Origin: Medicago truncatula
Lineage: Eukaryota; Streptophyta; Magnoliopsida; Fabales; Fabaceae
Direction of reading: 5' to 3'
NCBI RefSeq assembly: GCF_003473485.1
Contig: NC_053046.1
Span: 43,609,832 to 43,673,831 of the forward strand
Length of the DNA stretch: 64,000 nt
The notes under the pieces are model-generated. The model ran no database searches. It was not told where the DNA came from and saw only the letters and a list, made by a program, of their open reading frames with translations. A program made the position numbers and the translations under genes. Below, piece after piece: positions 3,461 through 56,274 of the stretch; within the stretch, counting starts at the first letter, position 1, and every line of letters begins with the position of its first letter.

Positions 3461-4115
3461 CAACTCATGGTTTTAAATTGCGGTTTGCAAAAACAATTGT
3501 GGCTGCAATATAAAGTATTTTTATGTGTCCGCATATTTGTGAGATAATCCGAGTTGGCCAATGCATTTCTCCTTCTTTCTCATCCACCATTCCCCCAATC
3601 AAACACACTGCAACTTTCTCTTCACAACAACAATCACCCTTCTACTCATTATCACCTTCTAACCCTTTTCCTCATTTTCCTTCAAATCACTTCAGGATTA
3701 TCTCAAAAATTACACCTTTATTCTTAAAAAAATGTTTGTAGTTATGGATTCCTTACAGAAAACTTCTGAAAAGTGTTTACATTCACAACTCATGGTTTTA
3801 AATTGCGGTTTGCAACAACAATTGTGGCCGCAATATAAAGTATTTTTATGTGTAAGCATATTTGTGAGATAATCCGAGTTGGCCATCGCATTTCTCCTTC
3901 TTTCTCATCCACCATTCCCCCAATCAAACACACTGCACCTTTCTCTTCACTACAACAATCACCCTTCTACTCATTATCACCTTCTAACCCTTTTCCTCAT
4001 TTTCCTTCAAATTATTGCTTCAGGGTTATCTCAAAAATTACACATTTATTCTTAAAAAATGTTTGTAGTTATGGATTCCTTAGAGAAAACTTCTGAAAAG
4101 TGTTTACATTCACAA
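3461..4115. repeat. tandem duplication, 325-bp unit, two copies
   Basis: Copy 1 spans 3461-3785 and copy 2 spans about 3786-4115. Each begins CAACTCATGGTTTTAAATTG and the copies are about 95% identical with a few small indels. Each contains a short serine/proline-rich open frame (72 and 82 codons), but the frames differ in length and end. The C/T-rich composition looks like untranslated or intron sequence rather than a conserved protein. No function is assigned. Confidence 0.8.
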
Positions 4116-5344
4116 CTATGGCATGCATGCGTAGGTGCCAGGGCTCAAGACACCTACACACTATTTCTCTTTCAACTGTTCTAGCTTCTACCATGGGGTA
4201 GGATGTACATGGTTTGGATAAAATATACTCACTCCGTTCCATATTAGATGATCTAGTTGACTCCGACACACGTACCTATGCATATGTTTTATCTTTGATA
4301 TCTTCAATTCTCTACTAAAAAAATTATGAAAATTTAATATTTTAAATAAAGCTTTGATATCTTCAATACTCATAGAATAATATTAGAATATAATAATTAA
4401 ATAAAGCTTTTTTTTAATTAAAAAGCTATTTTGACTTCTAATTGAAAGACCCCATGTACAGTCCATTGTTGCTCTATCATTAATTTTTCAATTTGAGCTG
4501 AAATAAACAATTTATGGGTTGGTTCACGAATTCTACTTTTTTTCTTAGGATAAGAAACACGTTAGTCCTGTACCCAAAAAAAAAAAATACACGTTAGTCC
4601 AACCATTTTTCCTTTTCCAATTTTATTTTATTTACTATTTTATCCTTTTTATAACAATGTTTAAATTATGAATTAAAAAATAGATAAACCTTATTATAAT
4701 ACTCCACTATAATATGAACAATATTGTCTTAAAAATATATGAAAGAAATAGGAGATTTGGGTTGGATTTTTCATAATTTCAATTACATCCTTAAACAATT
4801 TTTTCAGTAACAATGTTATATTGTTGGTGTCATTAATAAAGGTAAAAGTTTATATTATATTTGCAATATTAATGTGGAACTGAAAAAGATAAGCATAATT
4901 TGTTACAATAAATCACAAACATCTATACATATAATTTTAATCAAAATCTAAATTTCATAAAATATTTATCTAAAACTTGCAGAAAGACAGACACTCACGT
5001 GCCCGTCATTTTGCTCTTTTTAATGTGCTAACACGTATAAATTATCAACAATATTTTATATAAATTTTGCGTGTAAATTACAAACGACATTTTATATAAT
5101 TTAATTTTTTATGTAAATTAAAAAATATAAATATAGACATTTGTGACTTTCAATTGTAACAAACTCAACAAACCAAATTTATCTTTTTCAATGAGAACAA
5201 TAATATAACAAATGTAACAAAATTTCTTATCTTTTTTTAATTACAACAATAATATAAAAAAAAAAAATTAAGAGTATAATTAGACAGATCAAAATTTGTT
5301 ATAGATTACATTGTGAAAAGTTAGTCCATGAAGAAAAAGATTAA
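4116..5344. other. intergenic; possible degraded Stowaway end
   Basis: AT-rich DNA. At about 4230 the phrase ACTCACTCCGTTCCATATTA resembles one end of a Stowaway-type MITE, but no matching second end was found, so it is at best a truncated copy. Nothing else was seen. Confidence 0.35.
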
Positions 5345-6017: not shown

Positions 6018-6082
6018 TAAGAAATTTTGAAGAAAATATTTAATTATTAGGAAATAAAGATCATTAAAAAAAATAAAATCGT

Positions 6083-6092
6083 CTATAAAAGG
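6083..6092 (+). promoter_or_regulatory. likely TATA box of the SKP1-like gene
   Basis: CTATAAAAGG is a near-consensus plant TATA box 78 bp before the ATG at 6170. It leaves room for a short 5'UTR of roughly 50 bp. Confidence 0.65.
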
Positions 6093-6169
6093 AGCAATAG
6101 AATACAATTATTTGCCACAGATAACTTTTCCCTTTCCTCCAAAAGTCCAAACCCTAACCCAACAATACG

Positions 6170-6625
6170 ATGTCATCAAACACGATCTCTCTCAAAACCT
6201 CAGACGGCGCCATTTCCGAAGCCTCGCCAACTCTCACCAAGAACATGAAAACTGTTCAAACCATCATCGGTGAAGCCGATGCTGACGTTTCCATCATTCC
6301 TCTCCTCAACGTTTCCTCCAGCCACATCAACAAGATCATTGAATACCAAACTCTCTCAGACGATGGCAAAGAGAAAGAATTTTCCGTCGAGGAACTGAAT
6401 AACGATGAGGTGAAGGAGTTTCTTCTTGCAGTGCATTACTTGAATATGGAGAGTCTTTTTGAGCTTCTGACTGGGGTTGTTGCTGATCGGATTAAGAACA
6501 AGAACGTTGGTTATGTGAGAGAGTATTTCGGTGTTGAGAATGATTTTACGCCCAAGGAAGAGGCTGAAGTTCGTCAAAGGAATAGTTGGACTTTTAAAGG
6601 CGACGAAGTCGAACCTGATGAATGA
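6170..6625 (+). CDS. SKP1-like protein (ASK family), intronless
   Basis: A 151-residue protein encoded without introns. SKP1 is the adaptor of SCF ubiquitin ligases: it bridges CUL1 and F-box proteins in the cytosol and nucleus. The N-terminal half follows the Skp1 BTB/POZ pattern (ISLKTSDGAISEASP near residues 6-20, IIPLLNVSS near 42-50, HINKIIEYQTL). The C-terminal half has the F-box-binding helices (AVHYLNMESLFELL, VADRIKNKN, VREYFGVENDFTPKEE). It ends in RNSWTFKGDEVEPDE where canonical SKP1 ends near ENQWAFE. It is divergent: the acidic loop between helices is shortened and the C-terminus has an acidic tail. The length is close to the usual 150-170 residues. Such divergent single-exon ASK genes are common in plants. 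A Tourist-like MITE sits just upstream. Confidence 0.9.
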   Translation: MSSNTISLKTSDGAISEASPTLTKNMKTVQTIIGEADADVSIIPLLNVSSSHINKIIEYQTLSDDGKEKEFSVEELNNDEVKEFLLAVHYLNMESLFELLTGVVADRIKNKNVGYVREYFGVENDFTPKEEAEVRQRNSWTFKGDEVEPDE

Positions 6626-8570
6626 AAAAGAATCGTGAGCTTTAATGTTTACCTTAGAAATTAAACCTAATATTATTGAATTTAAACTTAGGTTTTGTTT
6701 TTTCTGGTGTGAATTGTGGTTGTGATGTTTTGAATTGATCATGAAAGTGTTTCTATCTTCTATTTTATTTTCCATTGTTCAACTTAATCGTTTTTTTTAT
6801 GTCAACTTGATCATTATTCGATTTTATGCGTAAATAATTTAAATCAGTACATATTGTTGGATGCCAATTGCTAGAAACCCTATTTTGTGCGTAAAATGAT
6901 TTCTACTGTTGGCTGCTAATTGCTATAAACCCTAATTTTATTGGCTTTTGTAGAGAATAGGGCTATGAAGTATTTAGCTAATAATGAAATCAGAATTGTG
7001 AAATTGATCCAATTATGTAGAAGTTATAAACTCTAATCAAATTCTGGCTGTTCTTGATCTTGCAAGGGAGGGGTGTACCTCCCCTAATCGAACTCTATTG
7101 GTTTGTGAAATTGAAGAAGAGTCTATAACAAACTTTGTCTTGACTTTTGCCCCATGTTTCAAGTTAGTCCCTTATTTTATCATATTTCAAATTTGTTTTG
7201 GACATTGCGCAACATTGATCAAATTGGTATATTTTGTCTCTTCCAATTAAAAAAAAGTGTCTCTTTGAAAAACTAAGAAACCACGATTATTTGTTACTTC
7301 TACAAATTCACATTAGTATTGCAATTCCACATTTGTATTGCATAAGGGGGACGAGAAAAGTATTCCAACTGTGATCCAAACATAGGGTAACATTTATCTC
7401 ACCCAAATTGATATCAAGGGAATCAAACTTAAAACGTTAAGGAGGGGCACACTCTCAAATATCATAAGGAGGGCCAATACCACCCCACTTTCTCAATTGG
7501 GTCAGAGGGTAACATTGTTAACATTCCTAAGTCAATCTTATTGAAGGAAAAAAAAAACATTGTTAAGTCAACACATTATCTCACACATAGAATATTGGGG
7601 AACACACATTGTTAACGTTGGTGAGTTGACACATTATATGTCACACATAGAATAATGGGGGACATTAATGATACAATTTTAATAATAGAGGTTGTATACT
7701 CACTTAAAGGGCAAGGCAACAATATTGAGGACTATTTAGTGACAAATGTGGTTTTTATACAATAAGAGATTTCTATTTTTATACAGCCCGCGATATCTTA
7801 AAAAACATATATCAATGATATACATTCTTTGGTCAATGATATAAGCAAAATTCTATTTTTTTTATAGGTTCTATTTATTAAATAAATCTAACAAATAATT
7901 TTTTGTTTATAATAGTGATTGGAGAATATATATGGCTTCTATATATATATGATAATCACTGTTTATATCGATGAATATAATAAAAATCGGTAGTTTATAA
8001 AAATAGATTCAATTAAAAATCGTTTAAGGTTGAGCTTTTACAAAATAGCCAGTTAAAGATCCAAGCTAACTTGCCATACGGGTAAATCCTTCAGGGAAGT
8101 GCAATTTTGTGCCCGTAAGGTTGTGTGATCATGTGTTATTATTGGAGGTGTTCATCATTGTTTGTGGATTAACAAAAGTGAATACTCTCTTATAATTTGG
8201 TGTTATCTCTTCGGAGTTCAATTTTTTTCCCTCCAGTTCTCAGGAAAAAGGGTGTCTGATAATTTGAAGGTTGGTAGAAAGATAAGTAAAATCTAATCAA
8301 GAATTTTCCATGAACAATTTGTTTCGGTGATGTAGATTAACCACTTGAGACCAATTGCTTATCTCAATAGTCTAGTACCACCATGTATATTATTATTAGA
8401 GTAAATTAAATTACACTCGCATCCCTAAGAGAAGCTTGAATTACAATGTCTTTATTTCTTATGTTAAAATATACACTTCTCCTTCTTTGAAAAGTTAAAA
8501 TTATAGTCTCCTCCCCTATAAGATGCTTGAAATATAACTTTACAATCATCTCTCTTAATAATTAAACATG
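6626..8570. other. intergenic, fragments only
   Basis: AT-rich sequence downstream of the SKP1-like gene, whose 3'UTR probably occupies the first 100-200 bases. A partial direct repeat is seen at 7572 and 7629 (a phrase containing CACACATAGAATA). Nothing else is supported. Confidence 0.4.
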
Positions 8571-9366: not shown

Positions 9367-10770
9367 TTTCTCCACCTTGAATTCAAATTGATGATGATGC
9401 CACTTTAAGTATCAACCACCAATTCCTTTTTCTTTTCCCTTGCATCCATCTACACCAAGTAGCTTCACAAGTCTACACCAAACCCTCTTCAACCACGGAA
9501 CGTCTCCCGTTTCCTTGAAGATCACCTTGCATCCAATCACCCTTGGTCTTTTAGGTAATCACACAAGCCACATCATATATTCTTCAAACCCCAGAATGCC
9601 TTCCGTCATCATGAAGAATTCACATGCTCACAGCTAGAGCATAAACACCCAAGGCCTCCATAGTTGTACCATTCTCGGTGTCATCCACTCCACCTCAAGT
9701 TGAGCTTTCTCTTCCTCAACTTCCAAATGCATACTCACAATATGCTTCTACCTTCCAACTCCTCCACCTTAAAGGTTGATCACGGGTACTCTTCACACCG
9801 CCTCTCTAGGCTAACAATGAATATTCTTCCCATCGCCTCTCCAGGATGATGTTGAGTGTTTAACGTCTCTCCAGACAACCACCACTCTACAAGGCATCAA
9901 TACCAAGGTGAGAAACCTCACCTTCATCCTCCCAACAACTCACAACCAAAGCACTCGCATCCTCATACTCTTCGGACACAACTTGCGCGGGGTTCTCATT
10001 GTCCTCCGGAAAATCCCTCTTGAAGTGATCAAACTTGTGACACTTAAAGCACTTATACTTATCCTTGTTACCGCTCTTTGAGCTTCCTCGGTTACCTCTA
10101 CCTCCACCATTTCTTCTTGAAACACTAAGGCCTTCACTGTTTTCATCCGCTCTGAAGTCCTTGGACTTGGTCAACTCCTTGGTTCTTAAAGTCGCTTGAA
10201 CTTCTTCCAAGGTGACAGTGCCTTTTTTGCCATAGAGTGTGGTATAGTTGAAGGATTCAAATGATCTCGGTAGAGCATACAACAAGAGTATAGCTTTGTC
10301 TTCATCCTCAAGTTGCACCTCAATGTTCTCAAAATCATCAAGGATTTTGTTGAACTCTGTTAATTGTTCCGTCACGGTCTTTGACTCCACCATCTTGAAT
10401 GAATAGAGTTGTTGCTTAAGGAATTGCCTATGAGCCAAAGACTTGGTCATATACAATGACTACAACTTTGACCACATCACCTCTGCGGTAGGTTCCTTCG
10501 CGACATCCCTCAAAACTTTGTCACCAAGGCACAAGACAATGACACTTCTAGCCTTGTCCACCATCTCGGTCTTCTCCGTTTGTGTCATGGTGATCGGAAA
10601 CGCACCTTCACCCTTCAAAGCTTTCTCACAATTTTGTTGTATAACACCGCTTGCATCTTCACCTTCCATAACCCAAAATTGTTACTTTCGGTGAACTTCT
10701 CAATATCCCACTTTGAACCTATGGTACTCACTAAACCAATTCAATCTTATGCCCCACGATGGGCGCCAAT

Positions 10771-32959: not shown

Positions 32960-34250
32960 AACTTCTCCCTTAAACACAAGTCTGAAACAAAGGCTGCAAG
33001 TAAGTGTCCCTTCATTCTCACCCCCTGTTGTTCTCTAGTATATATATTTTTTTTTTCTTTCTATTATTATTAGATGAACTGTTTTGTAAAAAAATGTTTA
33101 GAATGAAAGAAGTTCGCGTGCATGGATGCTTCAAAAATAGTATTTCGTAGATGTGGCATACGGTACCCTTGTATGAAGGTTTCATAGCTTTTGTGAGCAA
33201 TAAAATATTCATATATTAGTTTACATCTAGGTCTAGCACTAGCACAAGTAGTTGATGCACAATATGTGAAAGTTGTAAACCCTATTATATCCGGTTCGAT
33301 TGGGTTGTTTCTCTGGATTAAATTACGTCGTAATGTTTTTATCACAAATGATGTTTGTCATAATGCTTTATTATATTATATAGTTTTTCTAGTTTTTTCT
33401 GTCTCTAGTGATCCGACTATCATTCTTATCTAGGCATAATCATCATGTCTTCTCTCTACATGCTCAAACCACCTACGCGTAGGGAATCTGGTTCAATTCA
33501 TACTAAAAAAAACTTCATACATTTGTTCCTAAATATACAAGTCATTAGAAAGAAAAAAAATGTTTTCCCAGATATATCCTGGATTAATTCCACTAAGTAA
33601 CTTGATTTGTGAACTTAAAAAAAAAATATTGATTTAGGGATTTTTCGACAATCATTAAAACTGGGGGTTGTTGTTGATTAGTTTGTTGATTTGCTCAAAA
33701 TTACTAATTGTTGTTTAAATATTTGTTGATTTGCTCAAAATTGGTCATCGTTGCTGCATGATTTGTTGTTGCATAAAAGTACAAAGCTTGATTTGCTCAA
33801 CATTCATACACAATGAATACAATAAGTACAATGCTGATTTTTATTAATATGTGTGAAAATTGCAAAAGTAGCTCATTATAAGGGACATATAAAAAAATAA
33901 ATAAGGGACATAGATAGTTGCAGGCCTAAGCAGCACCTAAAAAGCCGGTTGAAAAGTGGATGGAATCTTTTCCAGTCTAGAGACTGGCGGATTACCCTCG
34001 AAAGAAAGGATACAAATCCGGTTAGGAAAGACTTGTAAGAAATATATGTGCTTGGTTGTTTTGTCTACCAACCCTGAAAGAATTGTGACTCTTTTTTCTT
34101 TGTCGGCTGTAAACCAATTTCGATCTTAGCCAATCTCAGGTTGACCGTCTCTTCGGCCCCCTTTCGATGCACTTACTTTGTGATTTTCAAGGGTTTTTGG
34201 ATGGCCACTCCACTAATTTAGTTTTAATACTTCCTTTTGTTATATTTGCA
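32960..34250 (+). other. probable 5'UTR exon and 5'UTR intron of the MCTP gene
   Basis: A donor GTAAGTG at 33000 and an acceptor TATATTTGCAG ending at 34250 bracket a 1.25-kb stretch without coding sequence just before the MCTP ATG. This gives a leader exon of about 40 bp and a short second UTR piece (34251-34266). It is inferred from splice signals only. Confidence 0.5.
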
Positions 34251-34266
34251 GCTACTATTACCAACC

Positions 34267-36558
34267 ATGGCATTGGCAAAAGTGGATTTCAGTTTGAAGG
34301 CCATTTCTCCCATTACAGACAATTTAGGAATCACATCTCAGACTGATCTTGTTGAAATCAATCTCTTCTTATTCGTAAAGATAGTCAGAGCCCGAAATTT
34401 GTTTGCACATAATGGCCATAACAATTTGGATCCTTATGTGGAGGTGACAGCTGGGAGGTTTCTAGGGAGAACCTTTTGCTTACAGGGAAACACAAATCCA
34501 GAGTGGGACCAGGTCTTTGCACTTGAGAATGATCAAATTGAAAAGGAAGGGATAAAAACTGTTGAGATTTTTGTGAAGGATAATGTTGCTAGGTATGATC
34601 CATATTTGGGTATGATTTCATTGGAAATTTTTCATATTCCTAAAAGATTTCCAACTGATAGTGCACTAGCACCAAAATGGTTTGTACTAGAAGATGAATG
34701 TAAGAGACGATATAGGGGAGAGCTTATGATGTGTTGTTGGATAGGAAATCAAGCTGATGAAGCATTTCATGAAGCTTCGCATTTACAATTAGGTCATGTG
34801 CTAATTAGTGCTCGTCATACTCTTAATACTTGCTCAAGGGTATATATTATGCCTAGGGTTTGGTGTCTTAGACTTAATTTGCTTCAAGTTGAGGGACTTA
34901 TACTTGAAATTGATGACCCATCTGAAAGCTCTGACATTTTCATCACTGCTACTTTTGGGAATGGGACTAGGACACTCGCTAGCAAGTCGGTGAAAAGCAA
35001 TAATGGAAATCCAATATGGAATGAAAAAGATATTTTGTTTGCTGTGGCAGAGCCCCTTGATGAAATATTGTTTTTAACTGTGGAGCAAGGAACATTGGCA
35101 AGGTGCAAGAGGTTAGGGACATGTGTATTTCCTGTGAAGAAGGCACAAACACCATTACAAAATCCGGATCGTCTTGTAACCATGGATGTTATACAGAATG
35201 AAAGATTTTTTGTCGGTAAGCTTAGTATGAGGGTCACTTTGGACGGCGGGTATCATATGTTTGATGACGATCCACGGTACAGCACTGATGTGAATCCAAC
35301 AGACAATGGGGTCTGGAGACCAAACATTGGAGTTTTTGAGATGGGGATATTGAATGCTACAGGTCTTCCAGAGATGAAACCTCAAGGTCGCACCGATGCC
35401 TATTGTGTAGCTAAATATGGCTCAAAATGGGTTCGGTCAAGAACTGTTGTTAATAGTCTTTCTCCAAAGTGGAATGAGCAATACTCTTGGAAGGTCTATG
35501 ATCCATCTACATTTTTCATTATTTCTGTGTTTGATAATAGTCAATTACATGAAGAATATATAGCTGCTGGAGCAAACGATACAAGGATAGGGAAGGTGAG
35601 AATCAGTCTATCAGAAATGGAAATCAACACCGTTTACAATTATTCTTATCCTCTTGTTCAACTTCAACCTTCTGGGCTGAAGAAGATGGGGGAAATTCAA
35701 TTGTCTTTCAAGTTTACTAGCCCTTCTAAAGCTAATTTGTATAAAAAGTACACAATGCCAATGCTTTTTCCACAACATTTCGAGGATCCGCTGTCTCAAG
35801 CTCAGTTATACGGATTAAGGCAACAAACTATCGAGCTTGTGCGGTCAAATATGAGCAAAGCTGAACCGCCGTTGAGAAATGAGGTTGTTGATTATATGCT
35901 AGATTCACGTGAAATCGTGTGGAGTATGAGAAGATGTAAAGCTGATTTTGAGAGGATTAACGTCTTTCTAAATTGCTTGGTTGGTATTTACACTTATTTT
36001 GATGACGTACGCAAGTGGAAAGATCTTGTTTCACCAATTATAGCTCACTTGTTGCTCGTCGTCTTGTTCTTTCTGCCTCAATCGTTGTTGCCAGCAATAT
36101 TTCTTGCTCTTATAGTCCATATGCTGCAGGAATTTCAAATAAAGCCAAAAACATTATCCCATGCAGATTTGCATTTGTCTCATGTGCATACAGCAAGTGA
36201 AGATGAATTGCAAGAAGAGTTTGATCCAATGCCATCCAAATTCGAAGACATCATTTTGATGCATAGATATGATCGATTAAGAGTTTCAGCTGGAAGAGTT
36301 GTAACACAGATGGGTGAGTTTGCTGCTACAATGGAGAGACTGCAGTCTCTTTTGAGTTTCCAGGATTCAACAGCTACAATGTTAGTTATGATTTCGTGTC
36401 TGATAATAGGGATTGTGGCTTTGGCTGTTCCTTTCCGATATCTTGTCTTTGTTTGGTTTCTTTATTTTCTAAGGCATCCAATGTTCCGTTCACCTTTTCC
36501 TCCATTTTATGAAAATTGGATTCGAAGGATGCCTTCAAAATTAGATAGCATGATATGA
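34267..36558 (+). CDS. MCTP family protein: multiple C2 domains and transmembrane region (763 aa)
   Basis: A single coding exon starting at MALAKVDFSLKAISP (the frame opens 30 bp earlier at a TTG; this ATG is the first). MCTPs sit in the ER membrane and their C2 domains bind plasma-membrane lipids. Several tether ER to plasma membrane in plasmodesmata or bind FT-like proteins. Visible domains: C2 at about 30-130 (LDPYVEV, NPEWDQVF), C2 at about 197-295 (divergent, few acidic Ca2+ ligands), C2 at about 352-465 (GRTDAYCVAKYGSKWVRSRT, SPKWNEQYSW), then the plant phosphoribosyltransferase-like C-terminal region (about 600-763) with membrane hairpins near 587-620 and 703-735. It ends in PSKLDSMI, like the usual PARTDCML. 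It has three C2 domains rather than four, as in the FTIP1/MCTP3/MCTP4 size class, but is clearly divergent: the first C2 has lost part of the acidic loop. Confidence 0.93.
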   Translation: MALAKVDFSLKAISPITDNLGITSQTDLVEINLFLFVKIVRARNLFAHNGHNNLDPYVEVTAGRFLGRTFCLQGNTNPEWDQVFALENDQIEKEGIKTVEIFVKDNVARYDPYLGMISLEIFHIPKRFPTDSALAPKWFVLEDECKRRYRGELMMCCWIGNQADEAFHEASHLQLGHVLISARHTLNTCSRVYIMPRVWCLRLNLLQVEGLILEIDDPSESSDIFITATFGNGTRTLASKSVKSNNGNPIWNEKDILFAVAEPLDEILFLTVEQGTLARCKRLGTCVFPVKKAQTPLQNPDRLVTMDVIQNERFFVGKLSMRVTLDGGYHMFDDDPRYSTDVNPTDNGVWRPNIGVFEMGILNATGLPEMKPQGRTDAYCVAKYGSKWVRSRTVVNSLSPKWNEQYSWKVYDPSTFFIISVFDNSQLHEEYIAAGANDTRIGKVRISLSEMEINTVYNYSYPLVQLQPSGLKKMGEIQLSFKFTSPSKANLYKKYTMPMLFPQHFEDPLSQAQLYGLRQQTIELVRSNMSKAEPPLRNEVVDYMLDSREIVWSMRRCKADFERINVFLNCLVGIYTYFDDVRKWKDLVSPIIAHLLLVVLFFLPQSLLPAIFLALIVHMLQEFQIKPKTLSHADLHLSHVHTASEDELQEEFDPMPSKFEDIILMHRYDRLRVSAGRVVTQMGEFAATMERLQSLLSFQDSTATMLVMISCLIIGIVALAVPFRYLVFVWFLYFLRHPMFRSPFPPFYENWIRRMPSKLDSMI

Positions 36559-38219: not shown

Positions 38220-40500
38220 TTCTTAAACTAGGACTGTTCTGAGGTTGAAGTTGGGTCGTCCACGTCCTTTGCGCATGTGCTTTTAATAGTGGGCCGGTTT
38301 CTCAAGTCTAATGAGTGTTTTGTGGTGTTCAATGTCTACGCTCCGTGGGATGTCTCCCGTCAGCAATCTCTTTGGGAAAACATAACTAGCAGGTTGGTTA
38401 ATTATGCTGATCAGAATGTGTGTCTGTGGGGACTTCAATGTGGTCTGTAATGTGTCTGAGAGGCGTAGTGTGGGAACCATTGTTTGTCAGTCAGGGATAG
38501 CCGGTTTGAATCATTTCATTGACGGTAATTTGTTGGTTGATTTACCTCTTCGGAGTCGGAGTTACACGTGGTACAGAGGTGATGGTAAATCTGTGAGTCG
38601 CATTGATCGATTTTTATTATCTGACAGGTGGTGTTTGACTTGGCCCAATTTTTTTCAGCTGGCTTCGACAAGAGGACTGTCGAACCATTGCCCGCTGGTT
38701 CTTTCTGTCGATGAGGAGAATTGGGGTCCTAAACCGTTACGTATGTTGAAATGTTGGGAAAAAATTTCAAGTTATAAAATTTTTGTTCGGGATCAGTGGT
38801 AATCCTTTCAGGTGGAGGGATGAGGTGGTTTTGTGTTGAAAGAAAAATTCAAATTAATTAGATTGGCTTTGAAAGACTGGCACCAGAAGCATTCACAGAA
38901 CTTATCTGCAAAAATCATGTATGTCAAAGATAAAATTACGGCTTTTGATCTGAGAGGTGAAACAGAGGATCTTTTAGATCACGAGGTTAAGGAGTACCAT
39001 GAGTTGTCTGATGAATTGTTTTCTTTATCTCGAGCGCACACTAGTATCTGCTGGCAACAATCTCGGGGCTGCCTATAGGGGGTGACCTGCGCCGTTTGTC
39101 TTTTTGGGAACCGCTGATCAATCGTATTCAATCTAGACTGTCGGGGTGGAAATCTAATCATTTGTCCTTCGGTGGTCGCCTGGTTCTGTTGAAGTCTGTC
39201 TTGTCATCTTTGTCTGTTTATGCTCTTTCTTTTTTCAAGGCTCCTTCAGGTATTGTCTCCTCTATTGAATCTATTTTAAATTGTTTTTTTTTTTTTTGGG
39301 GGGCGGGGGGGGTGATGACCACAGGAAAATTACTTGGATTTGAGTTTGTGGTATAGGGTGTTGTCGGCGAGGTACGGAGAGGAAGGTGATTTTTTGTTGG
39401 ATGGTGGGAGGTACGCCTCGGCATGGTGGCGCACCATTGCTGCCTTGCGAAAGGAGCTTTGGTTTCGTGACCATACAACTAGGTTGGTGGGGAATGGTAA
39501 ACATATTTATTTTTGGTCGGATGTGTGGGTTGGTGGGGTGTCTCTTAGAGAAAGATTTAGCAGACTCTTTAACTTATCAATGTCAAAATGGATGTCTGTT
39601 TTTGAGATGTTTCAGTTAGGGTGGGGGGAGAATGGTGAGGCGTGGAAGTGGAGGCGGAGGTTGTTTGCGTGGGAGGAGGAGCAGGTGGGGGAATTATGTT
39701 TATTGCTTCAAAATGTGACTTTGCAAGTTGACAATGAAGACATGTGGCTATGGTCGTTGGAAAAATCAAATGTTTACTCTGGTCGTAGTGCTTACAATTA
39801 TCTGACAACTCAACCACCAATTGATATTCCGGTGGCAGCAAAGTCTCTTTGGTATAAGGATATTCCTCTTAAGGTTGTGGTCTTTGCTTGGCACTTGTTT
39901 CGAAACAGGTTACCAACTAAGGATAATCTATTTCGCCGTGGTGCAATAAATTACGATTCTTGTTTGTGTGTTGCTGGGTGTGGTTCTTTGGAAGTTGTCG
40001 ACCATTTATTTTTTCATTGCTCGTTTTTTGGGTCGGTTTGGAACAACATTCTTCAATGGATTGGTCTTTCTATTGGTATTACCGAGTGATGCTTCAAATC
40101 ACTTCAATCAATTCGGTTTTGGTGGTGGAGGTCCAAGGGTGCAGCTTTCTTTTTCGAGCGTCATATGGTTTGCTACTGTGTGGAAAATTTGGAAGAAAAG
40201 AAACAATAGGATCTTCAATGGTAAAGAGTGCTCAATTATGCGTTTAGTGGACAAAATTAAGTTATTCTCTTTCTCGTGGTTGAAGGAAAAATTTGTTCAA
40301 TTTTCCCTCAATTACCATGGATGGTGGCTTAGTCCCTTGGCAGTGTTGGGTTATGGTTAACTGTTAGTTTCTTTCAGCTTTGTTTTTTGCTGTTTTCGTT
40401 TCCCTTTTGTAAATATTGTTTCGGACTGATTGTTTGTTCCTTGGCACATCTTGTGCTAGGAATGACTCTTTGTTTTTGTAATATATATTCCATTTTAAAA
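38220..40500 (+). mobile_element. decayed L1-type LINE with the reverse transcriptase core deleted
   Basis: The 5' part (38310-38802) encodes the rear half of an endonuclease: VFNVYAPWD, then CGDFNVVCN, SYTWYRGDGKSVSRIDRFLL and GLSNHCPL. Next comes a linker frame (38833-39078). At 39062-39255 the reading resumes at GLPIGGD / SFWEPLINRIQSRLSGWKSN, the segment after the catalytic core. The YADD-bearing RT core is therefore missing. 39334-40089 holds the late ORF2 region with a zf-RVT-like domain (SLWYKDIPLKVVVFAWHLFR, NRLPTKDNL, CxxCG-like, DHLFFHC). The C-terminus continues in another frame at 39968-40360 (IWKKRNNRIFNG), so at least one frameshift lies near 40070-40090. The tail near TTGTGCTAGGAATGACTC is shared with another LINE end at 42570-42715. 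Confidence 0.88.
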
Positions 40501-54070: not shown

Positions 54071-54612
54071 CTTTCAATTAGACTAATACCTCAAAATAGT
54101 CCTTGAATTTTGAAAAATCGGCCAATTTCGTCCCTGAATTATTCGAAATATCAAAATAGTACATGAATTTACAAAATGTCAATCAAATTAGTCCCTCTGT
54201 TAAATTGGTCTGTTAACGGAGGTGACGTGTCACGTTAACCTCTGACAAAGCGTACCACGTCAGATGCCACGCAAGCAGGGACTAAATTGATGGATTTACA
54301 CAAAATTTCCAAGGACCAAATTGATGGATTTTCAGAAAATTCGCAACGGCTCTTTCCCATCTTTGTGAGTAACGGCTCTTTCTCCACTTCCTCATTTAAG
54401 GCTATTTCTTCCCCAAATATATAAATTTGGAACCTAATGTTATAATTCCTTACATATAAATTTGGAACCTAATGTTATAATTCCTTACATAGAGTTCAAA
54501 ATCCCCAAAATTTCTTCCCCAATTCAAAAAACTTAGAACCCTAATTTTTTTTGATTAAATTCGAAATTCATAAATCAAGTGCTCTGCCTTGTAGATTCAG
54601 TGTTTAGAATTG

Positions 54613-55131
54613 ATGGGTGGTGCGCGAATGGGCAAAAACAACTACAACAACCGTTATTCATCTTCAAGCTCTATGTACAATGATGATGTGAGAGAGCTTC
54701 AATGTTGGTGTCCTAGAATTTGTGTTGTAAGAAGAGCAAACACTGTCAATAACCCAGGAAGGCTTTTCTATGCTTGCCCTCTGCATAAGGTTTGTTTAAC
54801 AATGGTTATTTGATGTATGAATGTTTTGTTTAAATTATACTGATTTTGTCTTTTGATTGTATAGGATGATTGTGAAAACTGTAATATTTTTGTGTGGGTT
54901 GATGAAGCTGAAGAATTAGGCTATTTTAAAAACAATGATGCTGGTCATGGAAGAAATGCAAGGTTGATCGAGAAGCCAAATGATAGGGGCAGAGAAGAGG
55001 TTTGGAGGGCAAGGTTGATGGATAAAGTTGATTGTCTAGGAAGTGAGCTTAGGTTGATTAAGTTATTGATAGGAGTATTTTGTTTGATTGAGTTGTTTAA
55101 AATGCTATTGTATTGTGCCAAGTCCATGTAA
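54613..55131 (+). CDS. GRF-type zinc-finger protein with C-terminal hydrophobic segment (147 aa, 2 exons)
   Basis: Exons 54613-54789 and 54865-55131, joined in phase, with the stop at 55129-55131. The GRF zinc finger (residues about 30-72) shows CWCPRICVVRRANTVNNPGR, LFYACPLHKDDC and CNIFVWVDE, the usual CxC, NPGR.F..C and C..F.W.D pattern. A charged, coiled-coil-like stretch (RGREEVWRARLMDKVDCLG) and a hydrophobic tail (LLIGVFCLIELFKMLLYCAK, probably membrane-anchoring) follow. GRF fingers bind single-stranded nucleic acid in proteins such as topoisomerase 3-alpha, NEIL3 and APE2; small plant GRF proteins of this layout have no settled role. It lies entirely inside a Mutator-type element, beside a transposase remnant, so it may be an element-borne accessory gene rather than a host gene. 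Confidence 0.82.
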
Positions 55132-55487
55132 TGTTGTAATGAAAAAAGGTTGTCAATGAATGAATCAAACCTTTCTGTCAAAAATATTCAATCACATTGG
55201 TCCTTGAATTATATTCATATCCATCATTTCGATCCTTAAATTAGTAAAAAAAACATCAAATTGGTCCTTGAATTATCATAACAGAAATCAATTTGATCCT
55301 TTGGACATACATTTGCTGAACAAAGAAAAAATAAAAGACAAACACTTTGATTATAAAAAGACAAACATTTGCATTATATCATAAGTCAATATTCGAGTTA
55401 ATAAGTCATTACATAGCCAAAAAAACAACAGTACATAGCCAAAAAAACATTAATTAAACTAGTCCAAAAGCATAATTAAAACATGCA

Positions 55488-55751
55488 TCACTGTTTTCGA
55501 AATCCTGGAGTTGGGATAAACTCCATGTACTGCGGTTGAGTAGAAGCGGATGGCCCGTAAATTGGATTTGGAACTCTAACAACATCCTCTTGTTGCACCT
55601 CAGTAGCAACATTCTCAACAACCGTTTCCACACTTGCCATACTTTGTACTTGTTCTTCAGGCTCAGTGTCAATCCAATTCTTTGGTCTCCTAGCCACACC
55701 TTGCTTTGCACAACTTCTTGAGTTATGTCCCATCAATCCACATCTTCCCGC
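55488..55751 (-). pseudogene. C-terminal remnant of a MuDR-like transposase
   Basis: An exon-like block after a TTTTAG acceptor at 55752 reads RCGLMGHNSRSCAKQG, fitting the C-x4-H-x4-C part of the zinc knuckle at the end of many MuDR/MULE transposases. An acidic, low-complexity tail ends PTPGFRKQ. No upstream transposase or SWIM region was found between here and the right terminus, so the gene is deleted for its catalytic part. Confidence 0.6.
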
Positions 55752-56274
55752 CTAAAACTAAAACCAAAATTTCACAAAAAAACGGACATAAAACAGGGAT
55801 AAACGAACAACGGTGAATGGAAAACGAAGTTGAATGGCGTTACCTTGACAAACCACGAAATCTGACTTCAAAACCGAATCTTTTCCAAGGATGATCGCCG
55901 GTGATGATGATGATTTTGGTGAAGTGAAGAGGGTGACGGTTTAGGCGGGAAGGTGAAAGGTTAGGGACTTGTTTGATGCTTCTGAGTGAAAATCTGAGGA
56001 TGAAAGTGAATGGTAATAGAGGGGTATAATTGGAAACACAGGAAAAATGAAACTGAAATGTTAATTTTTGAATTTTGACCATTTCCATCAGTTTAGTCCT
56101 TGTACACGTGGCTGACACATCATCACTGTTAACGGACATTTTGGACGGAAGGACTGATTTGATGGACGTCTGTAAAATTCAGGGACTATTTTGATATTTC
56201 GAATAATTCAGGGACGAAATTGGCCGATTTTTCAAAATTCAAGGACTATTTTGAGGTATTAGTCCTTTCAATTA

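Follow-up and report, generated by a model that had tools for sequence, protein, structure and literature searches.

A short Mutator-like element (MULE) in Medicago truncatula raises the question of whether the GRF zinc-finger gene that it encloses belongs to the transposon or to the host. We analysed the stretch of 64,000 nucleotides in which it lies (the window, C5:43609832-43673831) and searched 430 Mb of the genome for related loci. Sequence analysis of the window places the element at positions 54081–56264, a length of 2184 bp. Its terminal inverted repeats (TIRs), at 54081–54232 on the left (plus strand) and 56113–56264 on the right (minus strand), were compared with one another and found to be 100% identical across the first 80 bp and 86% identical across 150 bp. 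Sequence comparison also revealed a perfect 10-bp direct duplication, CTTTCAATTA, on both sides of the element (54071–54080 and 56265–56274); the target-site duplications of MULEs are about 8–11 bp long. The duplication score is 10.5, a value of 8 or more being reached by 0 of 2000 random anchor pairs, and we take an 11th agreeing base (G) beside the duplication as a coincidence. Long TIRs, a target-site duplication, and termini and an interior in common with DDE-encoding copies together give this element the features of a MULE. The earlier note had proposed a recently inserted Mutator-type element with about 80 bp of identical ends and a perfect 10-bp duplication. Both the ends and the duplication are borne out, and they would fit a recent insertion.

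Two further repeats are present inside the element. Upstream of the GRF coding sequence, the 5′ leader contains an exact 35-bp tandem duplication (54419–54488, plus strand) which, among the loci scanned, is tandem solely in the window copy and is probably of late origin. Repeat analysis (D1, D4, I2, I6, I7) located TIR-like repeats of the GGTCCTTGAATTA type between the ends of the two genes (55187–55301) and beside the left TIR (54276–54343); these repeats might be the trace of an old join between a GRF-bearing and a transposase-bearing element. Elsewhere in the window, an open 776-aa frame at 34228–36555 contains three stretches of C2 type together with the C-terminal domain of a plant phosphoribosyltransferase. 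We take it to be MCTP-like, and it is probably an ordinary host gene. A copia-type gag piece (PF14223) lies at 9890–10459 and a piece of a LINE-like element (zf-RVT, PF13966; weak Exo_endo_phos) at 38386–40086.

The GRF gene is located on the plus strand and has two predicted exons, at 54613–54789 (aa 1–59) and 54865–55131 (aa 60–147 and the stop codon), which are separated by a GT-AG intron (54790–54864) whose splicing is predicted from sequence. It encodes 147 aa with no inner stop, confirming the description of an intact two-exon gene that faces a zinc-knuckle piece on the minus strand. Pfam identifies a GRF zinc finger (PF06839; 40.4 bits against a cut-off of 25.9) at aa 30–73, encoded at 54700–54906 and interrupted by the intron. 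The four zinc cysteines are invariant across 12 aligned proteins, and a profile search returned the GRF domains of NEIL3, ZCCHC4 and APE2 as the closest solved structures. In those proteins the same finger is a domain of repair or methyltransferase enzymes, whereas here, in the window protein and the others scanned, it stands as the sole Pfam domain in a small, hydrophobic-tailed protein. The layout of the GRF protein consists of a Ser-rich start, the finger, a charged stretch and, usually, a hydrophobic C-terminus. For the window protein, the best 19-residue hydropathy window covers aa 123–141 (55054–55110, plus strand) with a mean of 2.24 on the Kyte-Doolittle scale only; 99% of 1000 shuffles fell below 2.02 and their maximum was 2.41. 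Judged by hydropathy only, such a segment is found in 13 of the 18 GRF proteins recognised among 22 loci, the other four loci (L041, L042, L048 and L051) having given no regular-expression match. The five proteins that lack it are L033–L035 and the truncated L043 and L045. The segment is a possible tail anchor; the GRF protein is probably a nucleic-acid-binding helper fixed to a membrane.

At 55488–55751 on the minus strand lies the truncated C-terminal end of a MULE transposase, which was recognised by comparison with relatives and which carries a CX2CX4HX4C zinc knuckle; this tail has no Pfam match. Over 86 aa it matches, with 94% identity, the last part of a 183-aa C-terminal piece in a related copy, L015, and that piece is itself 72% identical over 146 aa (blastp) to the transposase end of a longer element, L056. 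An internal deletion junction was placed at 55748–55750, where both flanks are collinear with L015 and L015 has 583 extra bases. The earlier description of a transposase remnant thus stands insofar as a truncated tail is present, but the tail is better seen as the product of a 583-bp deletion relative to L015. Since the window copy equals L015 minus these 583 bp, it is an internally deleted, non-autonomous derivative, with a C-terminal tail only in place of a complete transposase of its own. Judged by blastp against L056, one transposase is represented by different pieces in different copies of the family: 122 aa of the N-terminal part in L016 (75% identity), and stretches of the DNA-binding-to-DDE region in L020 (73% and 86%), a copy that combines window-type TIRs with a GRF gene. 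Pfam names the L020 piece alone (MULE, PF10551, 35 bits) and has no match for the L015 and L016 pieces. The N-terminal transposase region, likewise without a Pfam match, is presumably PB1-like.

L056, which has related termini (the two TIRs are 85% alike over 152 bp), is full-length. Its open frame of 671 aa encodes MuDR DNA-binding and MULE domains, and more coding pieces come after it. L056 has no GRF match: the flanks of the GRF gene align to it but the GRF gene itself does not. Nearly the same protein is encoded at two other places, where GRF is absent from the matches listed, bringing to three the full-length window-type transposases without a listed GRF. The window family therefore includes GRF-less full-length elements, by which its short copies could be mobilised in trans. 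The complete transposase that the earlier note had suggested looking for between GRF-flanking termini was not found, in that no pair of window-type termini was seen to enclose both a full transposase and a GRF gene; L056 is full-length but without a GRF match. Window-type termini, a transposase tail and, in its interior, an inverted repeat of 388 bp were found in a 4.1-kb element at L055 (124–4267), which has no GRF match.

We next consider the termini around GRF genes across the genome. When GRF genes were searched for flanking inverted repeats, as the earlier note had proposed, the window-type terminus was found in all 20 of the best GRF relatives fetched (the window copy not being counted) and on both sides in 15 of them. 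Both outer ends could be set in 13 relatives: nine have a perfect 9–11 bp duplication, in L020 the duplication has a single mismatch, and no duplication was seen in L009, L013 or L027. A 21-base terminus pattern has 82 matches on one strand and 94 on the other, compared with 0 for its reversed control. Among the terminus matches listed, which cover 100 of the 176 pattern places, an exact terminus is present within 4 kb at 40 of 65 subfamily loci, with both termini at 18 of 65, and, for the other families, at 1 of 38 GRF loci. These matches also contain 30 terminus pairs, three of which have one right end in common. They enclose a GRF gene in 18 cases and a transposase tail in 15, at least three enclosing both and 0 neither.

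The orientation of the two genes is also highly consistent. The GRF subfamily of the window comprises 117 loci, clustered by hand among the matches listed (more matches exist), and a Pfam list of 94 GRF rows was reduced by clustering to 92, of which 76 belong to other families and 16 to the window family. Among the matches listed, a MULE transposase end lies within 4 kb of 45 of the 117 subfamily loci and 39 of the 76 other-family loci, and every paired locus is convergent (45/45 and 39/39, together 84/84; random-position control, 0.1%). This test used 130 of 150 and 146 of 150 listed rows, those dropped being mainly second pieces of one place. Within the same distance and the same matches, no transposase end was detected at 72 of 117 and 37 of 76 loci, respectively. 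The 16 window-family loci of the Pfam list include three convergent ones and 13 without a listed tail. For two GRF family sets, convergence with a part of the clade transposase within 6 kb was found for 33 of 48 and 21 of 38 strong matches, and for 1 of 15 and 3 of 19 weak matches, with a 100.5-bit row (C6:9627016) counted among the weak ones. Two GRF loci, C2:15938938 and C1:21721207, are divergent from the transposase part. Here we used 144 of 145 transposase rows and 63 of 98 and 57 of 108 GRF rows, after weak, split or repeated rows had been dropped.

Counting from the transposase side gives a similar orientation. We selected 73 long-frame clade transposases by hand, requiring at least 400 aa of open frame and no stops, and left out C5:28998305 as a second piece of another place. 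A convergent GRF gene accompanies 27 of the 73 and none has one in another orientation (random control, 0.7%), while 46 of the 73 have no listed GRF. All 144 clade DDE rows taken together give 47 with a convergent GRF, 1 with a divergent one and 96 without a listed GRF, and at one further locus, L057, inspection by eye found no GRF in 1.8 kb. The best 150 of the 923 candidate MULE domains in the genome have a listed GRF within 8 kb at 1 of 150 places. Comparison of 91 of these 150 places with 43 of the 145 clade places gave an overlap of 0, and we therefore tentatively take the best 150 domains to be mostly of other lineages.

One GRF subfamily stands outside the GRF-MULE claim. This WIRYSK subfamily (L033–L035, L044, L053 and L054) has a long charged linker, and L044 has a hydrophobic end. 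No MULE partner was found in the 3.4 kb downstream at two of its loci, L053 and L054, and at one of this pair, C1:27397394, a MULE domain is convergent 6 kb away. Reading frames at L054 look Ulp1-like, with no Pfam match for the one frame tested, and the subfamily is possibly another transposon type. At L029, a further GRF frame (3927–4178, plus strand; 20.4 bits, below the cut-off) faces minus-strand MULE transposase pieces at about 6024–7488, beside a GRF-less element. An array of at least three GRF exons with a spacing of 720 bp is found at C5:17487121-17488737.

Two elements of other families, L031 and L032, hold a transposase and a GRF gene between one pair of TIRs. In L031 (TIRs 95% alike over 208 bp) the plus strand encodes the transposase and the minus strand the GRF gene; in L032 (TIRs 97% alike over 301 bp) the strands are exchanged, GRF being on plus and the transposase on minus. 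Each is flanked by a perfect 9-bp duplication (TAGAAAATA for L031 and TAATTAATA for L032), and their domain matches are PF03108, PF10551 and PF04434. They represent distant families and are apparently complete two-gene elements with a putative exon structure. A convergent second gene is thus present in L031 and L032 as well as in L015, L016, L020 and the window copy, the transposase of the last being truncated. The GRF gene is not universal in the clade, since L056 and L057 were found without it. We consider it likely that GRF is the often-paired second gene of one MULE clade and that the copy in the window derives from a two-gene element by internal deletion, with loss of autonomy. Weighing against this are the 46 of 73 long-frame transposases with no listed GRF, the GRF loci with no detected transposase end or a divergent one, the five proteins that have no hydrophobic tail and the weak constraint within the window family. 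The earlier proposal of an accessory transposon family is supported by the termini, the convergent neighbours and the two apparently complete two-gene elements; the view of GRF as an odd cargo for a transposon is not, and GRF is better called the transposon's second gene.

Within the window family, GRF could by now be a passenger which persists through short copies amplified by GRF-less full-length elements, and we judge the chances of this to be evenly balanced. Full-length window-type elements without GRF do exist, and the GRF gene is intact in 10 of the 24 window-family copies, three of these 10 having an in-frame 105-bp deletion. Constraint on the gene is weak here: the family dN/dS is 0.52–0.56 (L021 and L026, in which exon 1 is replaced, being left out of the largest set), and in the intact sets dN is above intron divergence (0.049 vs 0.031 and 0.051 vs 0.044). 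By region, the intact sets give a dN/dS of 0.18–0.20 for the N-terminal part, 0.69–0.73 for the finger, 0.88–1.25 for the linker and 0.49–0.54 for the tail. Stops show no shortfall in the window family relative to the shuffle expectation (3 vs 5.4, P 0.21). Set against the passenger reading is an excess of synonymous changes over the same kind of expectation (39 vs 27.7, P 0.007), together with the lower dN/dS of other GRF families. In two family sets of six genes each, which were chosen for open frames and in which many dS values exceed 1, dN/dS is 0.13–0.36 in 29 of 30 pairs, one pair being saturated. Over the last 35 columns of these sets dN is greater than dS in 4 of 30 pairs, such that the hydrophobic character of the tail appears to be kept more than its letters. 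We read the substitution patterns as suggesting that the window-family GRF was under constraint in the past and that this has been relaxed in the short copies. Because the passenger reading is limited to the window family, it is compatible with the two-gene helper explanation. A close GRF subgroup (L002, L003 and L004, at C4:5720261-5722186, C4:853928-855836 and C3:32149382) has an in-frame 105-bp deletion in which the linker is gone and the finger and hydrophobic tail are kept, the gene being otherwise intact.

Under the two-gene explanation that we prefer, the clade transposase consists of the presumed PB1-like N-terminal region, a MuDR DNA-binding domain, the MULE DDE domain, a SWIM finger and the zinc knuckle. 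The GRF gene, often tail to tail with it in the position of mudrB, would encode a transposon helper. As in NEIL3, the finger may bind DNA or RNA in single-stranded form; the charged linker may be self-pairing, and the C-terminal anchor would keep the protein in the nuclear envelope or ER, exposed to the nucleus or cytosol. There it might assist integration or the repair of transposition intermediates, or shield element transcripts from silencing, and short copies like the one in the window would be mobilised in trans by related full-length transposases. A bolder version, which we put forward tentatively and regard as rather unlikely, is that a tail-anchored MULE protein that binds single-stranded nucleic acid would place integration, repair or escape from silencing at the nuclear envelope or ER, and that GRF-only short copies may be helper-only satellites.

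We think it rather unlikely that the GRF protein is an anti-silencing factor similar to VANC instead of a transposition helper. A membrane site would suit small-RNA work. VANDAL elements encode sequence-specific anti-silencing proteins (PMC5735166, PMC10398659) and, like the GRF clade, carry accessory genes beside a transposase (VANA, VANB and VANC; PMC5735166). VANC, however, has DUF1985 and DUF287, and Pfam has no match for either in the GRF proteins scanned (the window protein and three others). We would rank a helper role in the position of mudrB, the best-supported reading, first and anti-silencing second.

The two readings that would detach the GRF gene from the transposon fare poorly. 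In one, a MULE made a one-off capture of a host GRF gene (a Pack-MULE) and the transposase tail is an unrelated remnant. MULEs often acquire fragments of host genes (PMC6446971), and the GRF gene of the window copy has an intron whereas the GRF frames of L031 and L032 are continuous, but we set this capture aside as very improbable because of these two distant, apparently complete two-gene elements and the convergence seen in many families; GRF is also rare near the best 150 MULE domains (1/150 among the listed GRF). In the other, GRF genes are ordinary host genes that adjoin MULEs since the genome is full of them, which the 37 of 76 other-family loci without a transposase tail within 4 kb (among the matches listed, and thus no tally of host genes) would suit, but which is contradicted for the tested families, and left with almost no probability, by the convergence of 84/84 paired loci, by random-position controls of 0.1–0.7% that set chance proximity aside, and by TIRs and target-site duplications that enclose both genes.

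Second genes have precedents among MULEs. In maize MuDR, which makes a 9-bp target duplication, mudrA and mudrB are convergent. MuDR is likewise a TIR element with two genes, the mudrA transposase and mudrB, but in the clade described here the second gene encodes a GRF-finger protein with a tail-anchor-like end, and some members have no listed second gene. Jittery and AutoMuTAnT are single-gene MULEs with a mudrA-like transposase; L056, in which no GRF was found, is of the same kind, whereas the GRF-bearing elements differ from them in having a second gene. The MuTAnT elements of M. truncatula target TA repeats and have a mean TIR of 47 bp (PMC4486113). In Mutyl, with mutB, and in plant MULEs with a PMD gene, the second ORF is antisense to the transposase, as here (PMC6446971), but that second gene is mutB or a plant mobile domain and not GRF, which goes unmentioned in the main text of that paper. 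MULEs with second genes are already known (PMC6446971). GRF in this role did not turn up, and no link between the GRF finger and MULEs was found in the literature searched, with most subscription papers and Repbase outside its coverage.

What a second gene contributes to a MULE is a matter on which this clade may bear. The mudrB gene of MuDR has been described as required for integration, and MuDR deletion derivatives with mudrB alone are known (PMC8224964); elsewhere its function is described as not well defined (PMC4486113). Members of this clade exist both with a GRF gene and apparently without one, and some keep a long open transposase frame; a comparison between them would directly test the second gene's contribution. 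In a study of Asteraceae, GRF-type fingers appear among the enriched domains, beside (retro)transposon domains (PMC10359422). If the reading given here is true, many of the plant genes that carry the annotation 'GRF-type zinc finger' may belong to transposons and should not be taken for expansions of host families.
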